From: Candidatus Rokuibacteriota bacterium
Lineage (GTDB): Bacteria; Methylomirabilota; Methylomirabilia; Rokubacteriales; CSP1-6
DNA: 64,000 nt
Direction: 5' to 3'
NCBI GenBank assembly: GCA_003220495.1
Contig: QHSP01000022.1
Coordinates: 124,001 to 188,000, forward strand
The position numbers and the translations under genes were made by a program. Under the pieces are notes generated by a model. The model saw only the letters and a list, made by a program, of their open reading frames with translations, was not told the origin of the DNA and made no database searches. Below are positions 18,065-25,804 of this stretch, piece after piece. The first letter of the stretch is position 1, and each line of letters starts with the position of its first letter.

Positions 18065-18301
18065 ATGGCCGTCGCGGTCACTGTCTACAGCAACGTCGGC
18101 TGAGGGCCCTGCCATAAAGCGATGGAGTATCTATCGCAAAAAGGCATCCCGTTCACCGAGCGAAACGTGGGCAAAGATCCCAAGGCGCGCGAGGAGCTGA
18201 TGGCGCTCGGCCTCTTGTCCTTGCCGGTCATCATCATCGGCGACAAGCGGCTCACCGGCTTCAACCCGAACGCGATCGACGCGGCGCTGAACGCGTCGTA
18301 G
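18065..18301 (+). CDS. Selenocysteine-containing glutaredoxin-like protein (TGA at codon 13)
   Basis: A 78-residue thioredoxin-fold protein that is only complete if the TGA at 18101-18103 is read through. The translation begins MAVAVTVYSNVG, then U13-G-P-C16, and continues HKAMEYLSQKGIPFTERNVG with the cis-Pro segment LSLPVIIIGDKRLTGFNP, to TAG at 18299. The TGA replaces the first Cys of a glutaredoxin CxxC active site (U-G-P-C), the expected place for selenocysteine. A hairpin with a GUA loop follows 15 nt after the TGA. AAGGAG lies 8-13 nt before ATG 18065. It is 13 nt upstream of the FTR gene. Sec-glutaredoxins with UxxC are known in Alkaliphilus/Clostridium oremlandii. A nonsense mutation is the alternative, disfavoured by motif position and hairpin. 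Confidence 0.88.
18119..18137 (+). promoter_or_regulatory. Bacterial SECIS hairpin of the glutaredoxin-like gene
   Basis: GCGATGGA (18119-18126) pairs with TCTATCGC (18130-18137): 8 bp with one G-U, loop GUA (18127-18129). The apical loop starts 23 nt after the UGA and begins with G, within the 16-37-nt window and G-in-first-two-loop-bases rule used for bacterial SECIS elements. It would recruit SelB with Sec-tRNA. Confidence 0.8.
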
Positions 18302-22399: not shown

Positions 22400-23632
22400 G
22401 TGGCCCGCGCGGGCGCCACGGCCGTCAACACTGCACTGGGTTGCCTCGACGAGGCGGAGCTCATCGACCTCACCCGAGCCCTTATCCGGATACCCAGCGT
22501 GGTCCGGCCCGGCGAAGCCGCCGCCACCGAGGCCGCCGTCGCCCGCCACGTGGAAGCCTGGCTCACCAAGCAGGGGTTCGACCTCGATGTCCAGGAGGTC
22601 GCCCCCGGACGCCCGAACGTCGTCGCCTGGCTCGGCGAAAAGGGGAGCGGCCGGAGCCTGCTCCTCGAAGGCCACACGGACGTCGTGACCGAGGGCAATC
22701 CCGCCGAGTGGACGCATCCACCGTTCGGCGCCGATCTGGTCGACGGCCGGATCTACGGCCGTGGCGCCGCCGACATGAAGAGCGGCCTGGCGGCCGCGAT
22801 GGTCGCCGCGACCGCCATCAAGCGAAGCGGAGCGACCCTGAACGGGCGGCTGGTCGTCGGCGCGCTGGTCGACGAAGAAGGCGACATGATCGGCGCCAAG
22901 CATCTCTGCACGACCGCGATCGGCCGTGAGCTCGACGCGGCGATCATCTGCGAGCCCGAGCAGAACGAGCTGTGTCTCGAGCAGCGCGGCGTCGTCTGGG
23001 CGAGAGTCGCGATCCGCGGCCGTATGGCCCACGGCGCGATGCCCGAAGCCGGCGTCAATCCGATCACGGCGCTGGGCGCCCTCCTTCAAGAATTGCCGGC
23101 GCTCGAGCGGAGGTTGCGAAAGCTCTGCCGCAAGAGCCCACATCTGCGTCCGCCGACCGTCACGCCCACGATCGCGCGGTCGCCGGTGCAGGGCGTCGAG
23201 CAGTCGAACGTGATTCCCTCGAGCGCGCGGGCGCTTCTCGACGTCCGACTCACGCCGGGACCGGACGAGGCGGCCGTGGCGCGCGAGATCGACACGGCGT
23301 GCCGCCTGGCGATGGCACGATGCCCGGGGACCGCGATCGAGTGGGAGCCGGTCAACGGATTCCGGCTGGCGACGCGGGTCGAGCGGAGTGAGCCGCTGGT
23401 GCGCGCGATGGTCGCCGGCGTGCGTCAGGCGACCGGACGGCGCGCCGTCTTCGGCGGCGTTCCGGGATCGACCGACGGAACCATCCTCCGAATGCAGCTC
23501 GGCATCCCGATCGTGACGTGCGGGCCCGGTCACCGGCTCATCCCGCACCAGGCGGACGAGTACGTCGAGGTGGCCGCGCTCGTCGACGCGGCGAAGATTT
23601 ACGTCGCCTCGGCACTGAACTTCCTCGAATGA
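22400..23632 (+). CDS. M20-family metallopeptidase (ArgE/DapE type)
   Basis: A 410-residue zinc amidohydrolase. Metal ligands and catalytic residues appear in order: LLEGHTDVV (His, catalytic Asp), GRGAADMKSG (bridging Asp), LVDEEGDMIGAKH (general-base Glu and Glu ligand), the third ligand region CEPEQNELCL, and the distal His in TCGPGHRLIPHQADEYV. The dimerisation domain lies at about 190-310 with GRMAHGAMPEAGVNPI. It removes an acyl or aminoacyl group from a small substrate; ArgE, DapE or a carboxypeptidase cannot be told apart here. The start is GTG 22400. The stop overlaps the next gene as ATGA. Confidence 0.92.
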   Translation: MARAGATAVNTALGCLDEAELIDLTRALIRIPSVVRPGEAAATEAAVARHVEAWLTKQGFDLDVQEVAPGRPNVVAWLGEKGSGRSLLLEGHTDVVTEGNPAEWTHPPFGADLVDGRIYGRGAADMKSGLAAAMVAATAIKRSGATLNGRLVVGALVDEEGDMIGAKHLCTTAIGRELDAAIICEPEQNELCLEQRGVVWARVAIRGRMAHGAMPEAGVNPITALGALLQELPALERRLRKLCRKSPHLRPPTVTPTIARSPVQGVEQSNVIPSSARALLDVRLTPGPDEAAVAREIDTACRLAMARCPGTAIEWEPVNGFRLATRVERSEPLVRAMVAGVRQATGRRAVFGGVPGSTDGTILRMQLGIPIVTCGPGHRLIPHQADEYVEVAALVDAAKIYVASALNFLE

Positions 23633-24858
23633 GCGAGGCGGTTCCCCGGCTGCGGGCGGTGGAGTCCTTTCCCGTCGAGCACGAGGGACGGTCCGGCATC
23701 GCCCTTCGCGACCCAGGCGGCTACACGGACGCGATCGTCCTGCTGCACGGGGCCCTCCTCGAGATCGTGTCCCTCTTCGACGGCGAGCACACGGTCGCCG
23801 ACATCCAGGCCGCCGTCATGCGCCGTCACGGTCAGCTCGTCGAGCGGCGACAGATCGAGGAGATCGCCGAGGCGCTCGACGAGCAGGGATTCCTCGACAG
23901 CCCGAGGTTTGCCGACCGGCGCGCCGTCATCGACGGCAGCTTCCTGGCTTCGCCGACCCGTCCGGCCACGCACGCCGGCGGAGCGTACGCGGGCGAGGCC
24001 GCCGAGCTGCGCGCGATGCTCGACGGATTCTTCACGCCTCCGGATGGGCCGGGGGCGATCGACGGGGCGTCGGCGACCGCGCCCGAGGTGCGCGGCGTGA
24101 TCGCGCCCCACATCGACTACCATCGCGGCGGCCCCGCGTACGCGTGGGCCTATCGCGAGCTGGCCGAGCGAAGCCAGGCCGACCTCTTCGTGATCTTCGG
24201 CACCTGCCACGCCGGGATGGAGCACCCGTTCGCGCTCACGCGGAAGGACTTCGCGAGTCCGCTGGGCGCCGTCCCCGTCGACCGCGAGTTCGTGGAGGCG
24301 CTCGCGAATCGCGCCCGTCAGGATTGCTTCGGCTCCGAGCTGGCCCACCGCGTCGAGCACTCGATCGAGCTTCAGGCCGTGTTCCTCCGCTATCTCTTCG
24401 CGGACCGGCGCGACGTCCGCATCGTTCCGGTGCTCGCGAGCTTCGCCCACGAGGCGATGCACCGGGGGCAGCGTCCCGACGACGACCCCCGGATTCCCAG
24501 ATTCCTCGACGCGCTCGCCGAGACGATCGCGACCAGCGGCCGGCGAGTCGCGTTGATCGCCGGGGCCGATCTCGCCCACGTCGGCCCGCGCTTCGGCGAC
24601 CCCGAGCCCGTCGGGGCCCCGGAGCTGGCGCGCATCGAGCGGGAGGACACCGCCATGCTCGAGTCGGTGGAGGCGGGCGACCCGCACGCGTTCTTCGAAT
24701 CGGTGGCCGGCGACGGCGACCGGCGCCGCATCTGCGGCTATTCCCCCATCTACGCCCTCTTGCGTTCGCTCGGCCGCGCCACCGGGAGTGTGACGCGATA
24801 CGGCCAGTGGCCCGATCCCAACGGCGTGGTGTCCTTCGCCAGCGTGGTGTTCGAGTGA
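23629..24858 (+). CDS. Memo-like protein (AmmeMemoRadiSam system protein B) with N-terminal extension
   Basis: A 409-residue protein. About 130 N-terminal residues look like a winged-helix/PqqD-like module (GGYTDAIVLLHGALLEIVSL, then HTVADIQAAVMRRHGQLVE). The Memo domain follows (about 130-405) with APHIDYHRGGPAYAWAYREL, FVIFGTCHAGMEHPFALTRK, RVEHSIELQAVFLRYLF and GADLAHVGPRFGDPEP, the His-rich metal site of Memo proteins. Memo proteins co-occur with AMMECR1 and a radical SAM enzyme; neither of those genes is in the window. It is translationally coupled to its neighbours on both sides. Confidence 0.88.
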   Translation: MSEAVPRLRAVESFPVEHEGRSGIALRDPGGYTDAIVLLHGALLEIVSLFDGEHTVADIQAAVMRRHGQLVERRQIEEIAEALDEQGFLDSPRFADRRAVIDGSFLASPTRPATHAGGAYAGEAAELRAMLDGFFTPPDGPGAIDGASATAPEVRGVIAPHIDYHRGGPAYAWAYRELAERSQADLFVIFGTCHAGMEHPFALTRKDFASPLGAVPVDREFVEALANRARQDCFGSELAHRVEHSIELQAVFLRYLFADRRDVRIVPVLASFAHEAMHRGQRPDDDPRIPRFLDALAETIATSGRRVALIAGADLAHVGPRFGDPEPVGAPELARIEREDTAMLESVEAGDPHAFFESVAGDGDRRRICGYSPIYALLRSLGRATGSVTRYGQWPDPNGVVSFASVVFE

Positions 24859-25349
24859 CGGCGACAGACGACGGTCCGAGCCTCGAGAACCCCGACGCGC
24901 CGCGGCCGGCCGAGTGGCGGCTGCCTCGGCTGCGGGTCGACGTCGACGGCGACTGGTACGACGACGACGTCGCGATCACCCACGCCGGGATCCTCGCCAA
25001 TCTCAGGTCTATCCTCAGGCGCGACGACCAGGGATACTTCATCCAGACGCGCGCTCGCATCCCCGTCGAGGTCGAGGACGTCCCCTTCGTGGTCACGAGG
25101 ATCGAGCGCCGCGGCGAGACCTTGCACGCGTTCCTGGGCGACGGCACGGAGGCCGACGTCGACCCGGCGACCTTGCGGGTCGGCTCCGACGACGTGCCCT
25201 ACTGCGCCGTCAAGGACGGCGCCTTCGAGGCGCGCCTGTCCCGCGCAGCGGCGTTCCAGCTGCTCGGGCTGGCCGACTACGACGAGTCCACGGGACGTGG
25301 CGCGTTGCGGCTTGGCGGCCGCGAATACATCTTGCGGCGAAGCGCGTGA
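24855..25349 (+). CDS. DUF1285 family protein
   Basis: A 164-residue protein resembling DUF1285: RVDVDGDWYDDDVAITHAGI near residues 28-47, GYFIQTRARIPVEVEDVPFV, and a C-terminal EARLSRAAAFQLLGLADYDE. The family is uncharacterised. The start is GTG 24855 (GTGA overlap with the Memo gene). The stop overlaps the next gene's GTG at 25346. Confidence 0.82.
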   Translation: MTATDDGPSLENPDAPRPAEWRLPRLRVDVDGDWYDDDVAITHAGILANLRSILRRDDQGYFIQTRARIPVEVEDVPFVVTRIERRGETLHAFLGDGTEADVDPATLRVGSDDVPYCAVKDGAFEARLSRAAAFQLLGLADYDESTGRGALRLGGREYILRRSA

Positions 25350-25804
25350 ACAAGGCGATCGCTCTGGTCCTGATCCTGGGGCTGGCGGCGGCCGGCGTGG
25401 CCTGGTGGATCGGCGCCGATGCCCAGCCGGTCACCGTCGACGAGATCGGTGACGAGAACCAGACGGTGCCGCAGGGCCAGCTGCCGCGCTTCGCAGCGAA
25501 GGGCGACGCGGCCCGGCTCTACGCCTTCGCGGCCGGCAATGCCGACACGCTTCGCTGGATGCCGTGCACGTGCGGCTGTACGAACGTCGGACATGTCTCG
25601 AACCGATCCTGCTACGTGAAGGCCGAAGCGGACGGGCGCGTCACCTTCACGAGCCACGCCGCGACCTGAACCGTGTGCCTGGACATCACGCGTGACGTGA
25701 TGCGCATGAAGGGTGAGGGCAAGCCGCTGGCGGCCATCCGGGCCGCGATCGACGAGAAGTACCTCCGCTTCGGACCGGCCACGCCGACCCCGCGGCCGAA
25801 CTGA
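25346..25804 (+). CDS. PCYCGC-type membrane protein with selenocysteine at codon 108
   Basis: A 152-residue protein, complete only if TGA 25667-25669 encodes Sec. An N-terminal signal/anchor helix (about 4-22) is followed by PCTCGC (Cys74, 76, 78), HVSNRSC (Cys89), then SHAAT-U108-T-V-C111-LDITRDVMRMK. After the TGA the same frame carries the family's C-terminal helix (KPLAAIRAAIDEKYLRFGP) and stops at TGA 25802. In PCYCGC-motif (PF13798-like) proteins the equivalent spot is a CxxC pair, so U-T-V-C fits replacement of a redox Cys. A 7-bp hairpin follows the UGA. The start GTG 25346 overlaps the DUF1285 stop. Likely outside the cytoplasm, in thiol or metal chemistry. Truncation at TGA would lose half of the conserved domain. 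Confidence 0.85.
25684..25702 (+). promoter_or_regulatory. Bacterial SECIS hairpin of the PCYCGC protein gene
   Basis: CATCACG (25684-25690) pairs perfectly with CGTGATG (25696-25702), loop CGUGA (25691-25695). The loop begins 21 nt after the UGA and has G as its second base with GU in the loop, meeting the usual bacterial SECIS rules. The hairpin is inside the coding frame, as in known bacterial selenoprotein genes. Confidence 0.8.

Follow-up and report, generated by a model that had tools for sequence, protein, structure and literature searches.

Does the in-frame TGA at position 25667 of the window end a gene, or is it read as selenocysteine (Sec)? The window is the whole stretch of 64,000 nucleotides from a Candidatus Rokuibacteriota genome that was analysed here. 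An open reading frame starts with a GTG at 25346, which overlaps the upstream stop codon (GTGA), and runs for 107 codons to the TGA at 25667-25669; when read through, it continues for 44 more codons up to a second TGA at 25802-25804. The original prediction described these two parts, and our analysis bears them out: the extension completes a protein of the family PF13798, and the proposed end at 25804 includes the true stop codon. The product reads in part ...MPCTCGC...SCYV...SHAAT-U-TVC-LDITRDVM..., and thus U108 and C111 form a UxxC. The features of the gene are as follows.

25346..25804, forward strand: coding sequence of 152 residues with one predicted Sec (U108), from the open reading frame and the PF13798 match; conservation is lost after 25804
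25349..25414, forward strand: N-terminal hydrophobic helix, residues 2-23, a probable membrane anchor, from the sequence and a low-confidence model
25565..25579, forward strand: CxCxC motif (C74, C76, C78), invariant in 79 of 79 aligned homologues
25610..25612, forward strand: Cys89, invariant in the alignment of 79 homologues
25667..25669, forward strand: TGA predicted to be read as selenocysteine, U108
25676..25678, forward strand: Cys111, the putative resolving Cys of UxxC, invariant in 79 of 79
25684..25702, forward strand: SECIS-like hairpin with arms at 25684-25690 and 25696-25702 and the loop CGTGA at 25691-25695

In a profile search, the match to PF13798 (PCYCGC) spans the TGA, covering residues 37-151 with an E-value of 6.1e-26 and 91.6 bits (gathering cut-off 25 bits). 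The literal motif of the window protein is PCTCGC and not PCYCGC. A search for solved structures with the window protein gave no match, and an AlphaFold model computed with four close homologues is of low confidence (mean pLDDT 52); it places a helix at residues 2-23 and the UxxC at a predicted helix start.

The simplest alternative is that the TGA is a true stop that arose by a nonsense mutation or a sequencing error in a decaying gene. This is how standard annotation treats the codon, and the homologue in the complete genome of Thermomicrobium roseum is likewise annotated only up to its TGA, an annotation loss of the kind that had been anticipated for the window gene. To set against this, 70 of the 95 genomes in the class contain PF13798 matches, all of them with an in-frame TGA, so that the same codon recurs class-wide in assemblies that are independent of each other. 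In the 82 loci that were read, the TGA encodes the first residue of UxxC, and it is always the same codon where the sequences can be aligned. We aligned 79 distinct proteins, leaving out a few truncated or frame-shifted copies. In 75 of these the TGA column holds U; in the other 4, which are plasmid-encoded proteins of Bacillota, it holds C. As expected for PF13798, the CxCxC and the downstream Cys positions are present, with six columns that hold nothing but Cys or Sec. The column of U108 is thus an invariant Cys wherever it is not Sec, in agreement with the original prediction that the TGA replaces the first Cys of a U-T-V-C pair.

When the window gene is compared with three close relatives from the Rokuibacteriota, dN/dS is 0.33-0.37 up to the TGA and 0.08-0.13 beyond it, and nucleotide identity falls to 23-37% past the second TGA. 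The low dN/dS after the first TGA and the drop in identity past the second imply that the protein spans the former and ends at the latter. Codon bias also persists 3' of TGA 25667. Since the TGA occurs in every homologue of the class, codon bias continues and dN/dS is as low as 0.08-0.13, its presence is far beyond chance. The relatives have kept the TGA and show no decay downstream; the part behind the TGA is in fact under stronger purifying selection than the part ahead of it. We thus reject a nonsense mutation or an assembly error on the basis of the class-wide TGA and the dN/dS behind it, and we consider a true stop highly improbable.

Some loci depart from the common pattern. In one (L053, G009:C48), CxCxC is missing its third Cys and a further TGA lies in frame, and two others (L064 and L069) appear to be frame-shifted or chimeric.

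A recoded TGA needs a machinery that decodes it, and the presence of a full Sec machinery is a further point against a true stop. The genome that contains the window has a size of 6.0 Mb and is 98% complete. It encodes a tRNA-Sec with the anticodon TCA (69.8 bits), which is clustered with selA (503 bits) and selB (357 bits) on one contig, and selD (337 bits) on another contig; all four genes that the original prediction had named for a check (selA, selB, selC and selD) are thus found. The gene selD (L021, G000:C1:77537-78481) contains an in-frame TGA of its own, and SelD is thus itself a probable selenoprotein.

In bacteria, the SECIS element is a hairpin after the UGA that carries a G in its apical loop at a set distance. 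In the window gene, the arms CATCACG and CGTGATG form a hairpin of 7 bp that begins 14 nt after the UGA. Its apical loop CGUGA begins 22 nt after the UGA, with the first G at 23 nt, so that the hairpin, its loop and its distance are all as originally described and an apical-loop G lies at SECIS distance. Across 41 sequences, 99% of the pair cells are standard pairs, which exceeds nearly all shuffles, and two pairs of the hairpin have changed on both sides. In one relative (L056), ACC...GAG replaces ACG...GAC, which flips a G-C pair to C-G; this change is synonymous on one side and replaces Asp by Glu on the other. The codons in the hairpin are nearly frozen: Thr is encoded by ACG in 41 of 42 sequences, the lone ACC being the one matched by the change from GAC to GAG, and Val by GTG in 41 of 42. 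Arg is encoded by CGT (33) or CGG (9) and never by CGC, although the window uses CGC more often than any other Arg codon. When hairpin energy was compared to synonymous shuffles, the window gene reached a moderate rank of 0.07, and the mean z was -1.65 for the window subfamily and -2.01 and -1.24 for two sister groups. Codon freezing and covariation are therefore stronger evidence for the hairpin than the energy shuffles. The conserved peptide DITRDVM partly forces the conservation of the hairpin. In the sister subfamily, another peptide occupies the site and yet a hairpin folds at the same distance. As the sequences are related, the hairpin counts are not independent events.

Termination competes with Sec insertion at bacterial Sec UGA codons, and the UGA might thus serve a dual, regulatory role, yielding a form of 107 residues when selenium is short and the full form when it is present. 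This competition is general in bacteria and the short form would retain CxCxC; nevertheless, nothing points to selection for a stable short product, and conservation is higher in the UxxC and the C-terminal helix than in the rest of the protein. We therefore regard such a dual role as improbable, if somewhat less so than a true stop.

Four things are demonstrated at the level of sequence, namely the recoded frame, the Sec machinery, a conserved hairpin and a column that is always U or C. They strongly support Sec insertion: the sel genes are present, and the TGA is kept without decay. We conclude that UGA 25667 is almost certainly decoded as Sec and that this is a real selenoprotein gene. SelB and the tRNA-Sec would decode the UGA, directed by the hairpin 14 nt downstream, and the outcome would be a PF13798 protein of 152 residues that is held in the membrane via its N-terminal helix. 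Its cysteine-rich domain would most likely be located outside the cytoplasm and would contain CxCxC, one further Cys, conserved histidines and the U-x-x-C redox pair at a predicted helix start.

In the window, two genes precede the Sec gene.

23518..24858, forward strand: gene of a Memo-like protein (PF01875, 3.8e-41), with an uncertain start codon and a 4-nt overlap with the DUF1285-like gene
24855..25349, forward strand: DUF1285-like gene (PF06938, 5.8e-6, slightly below the cut-off), with a 4-nt overlap with the Sec gene

The Memo, DUF1285-like and Sec PCYCGC genes (23518-25804) follow each other in successive GTGA overlaps, which suggests that they are translationally coupled. Downstream of the Sec gene lies the gene of a TPP enzyme, which adjoins the Sec gene in related genera too. 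With Memo, DUF1285-like and TPP enzyme genes as neighbours, no tie to copper is visible at the window locus, and the function has to be read from relatives because these neighbours are not copper genes.

Around ten divergent relatives, sixty neighbouring proteins were examined. These include twelve AhpC-TSA/redoxin, three SCO1/SenC and three multicopper oxidase matches, as well as two matches each to Caa3_CtaG, DsbD_2 and cytochrome c. At single loci, the neighbours are SCO1, a TlpA-like protein and a cation efflux protein (L116), SCO1 and a TlpA-like protein (L119), SCO1 and cytochrome c (L115), or Cox11 (L121). The genome of the window has only two SCO1 matches; three among sixty neighbours are thus well above the chance expectation of about 0.02, a rough estimate that assumes some 5,500 genes. 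In two genomes, the sister subfamily adjoins a copper-type P-type ATPase with HMA and YHS domains. The plasmid-borne Cys homologues lie near heavy-metal ATPases, a multicopper oxidase and a copper-binding four-helix protein; metal islands are common on plasmids.

These neighbours in related genomes suggest an envelope role in copper and/or thiol-selenol chemistry. We give about even chances to a function in envelope thiol/selenol redox together with the handling of a metal, probably copper. The Sec-Cys pair might form a reversible Se-S bond or bind metal together with CxCxC, in an environment shared with SCO1 and with TlpA-type thioredoxins that serve the copper sites of cytochrome oxidase. 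It is also possible, though we would not favour it, that the Sec protein has no metal role and is purely an oxidoreductase of thiols and selenols; it might, for instance, be fed by TlpA/CcdA and reduce peroxides or disulfides. The position of UxxC at a helix start in the low-confidence model and the redoxin/TlpA and DsbD_2 neighbours fit this proposal; the CxCxC, the further Cys and the conserved His, however, are more suggestive of a metal site, and both Sec and Cys members have metal genes as neighbours. Taken as a whole, a Sec-decoded, membrane-held PF13798 protein is the explanation that we find very probable, its redox and metal role in the envelope being the less certain half. More tentatively, the subfamily of the window may be a selenol-based copper chaperone or reductase that works with SCO1 and TlpA-type thioredoxins in the assembly of copper sites of respiratory oxidases. 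If true, selenium would be used in copper delivery. More generally, a whole class keeps Sec at a single position of this functionally uncharacterised family, and together with neighbours suggestive of copper and thiol chemistry this makes the function of the family testable.

The window contains a second selenoprotein candidate. At 18065-18298 on the forward strand, with a TGA at 18101, a glutaredoxin-like protein of 77 residues (MAVAVTVYSNVGUGPCHKAMEYL...) would carry UGPC at its active site. It resembles YruB-type glutaredoxins (2.9e-21) and the Uxx-star family (2e-11), both below the cut-off. Sec glutaredoxin-like families are known.

The original prediction further proposed an undescribed selenoprotein family, and this part does not hold. 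Sec-containing PF13798 proteins with UxxC are already on record: a table in the 2026 review PMC13188914 includes the 'CYCXC family protein (hypothetical protein OS_HP4), PF13798, UxxC' and credits OS_HP4 to Zhang & Gladyshev 2007, PMC9312934 lists OS_HP4 with UxxC, and NCBIfam has a model, NF041379, under the name 'CYCXC family (seleno)protein'. The curated equivalog cut-off of NF041379 is 90 bits. The window protein scores 57.5 bits and its subfamily 33-66 bits, and we thus reject strict membership in NF041379, whose coverage excludes the window subfamily. The other kind of PF13798 protein in the class scores 115-131 bits at full length, with one partial match at 95 bits. Sec in UxxC occupies the same column in the window protein as in these class members above the cut-off. 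The class thus has two clearly separated kinds, which are also separated in a tree based on few columns; in the same tree, a supported branch (98/86) divides the window kind from the Cys proteins of Bacillota. With OS_HP4 on record and the window kind below the cut-off of NF041379, we place the window protein in a known selenoprotein family, within a subfamily that has no model of its own. Where the UGA is read as a stop, genes are cut and the redox pair is lost in annotation; since the subfamily is below the cut-off, its proteins can be cut short, as in Thermomicrobium roseum, and a sister model to NF041379 is needed.

Lastly, we compared the window protein to known systems. The homologue on the megaplasmid of Thermomicrobium roseum (WP_012642643.1) belongs to another phylum and is very divergent in sequence, but shares the TGA codon, at which its annotation ends, and an identical 19-nt hairpin (CATCACGCGTGACGTGATG). 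Past the TGA, its frame on NC_011961.1 (L106:3866-4324) reads UGIC-IDITRDVM. A search for tRNA-Sec in this plasmid sequence alone gave nothing over the cut-off. With OS_HP4 and NF041379, the window protein shares the Pfam family and the order of CxCxC, later Cys and UxxC, and with their members in the class the Sec-type TGA column and the distance of the SECIS-like hairpin. Between the fourth Cys and U, the window kind is longer by about 11 residues, for which a beta hairpin is predicted; it also has a Pro/Thr-rich tail, and after UxxC it reads ITRDVM where the others have DEALDASRM or DITLDAYAM. The PCYCGC (lipo)proteins of Bacillota (for example in Priestia, Paenibacillus, Exiguobacterium and Geobacillus) match the window protein in architecture, down to the additional hairpin and the Pro/Thr tail, and are 34-38% identical to it. 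However, they carry Cys where the window protein has Sec, without an in-frame TGA, and they are anchored by a Cys lipobox whereas the window protein has a plain N-terminal helix.
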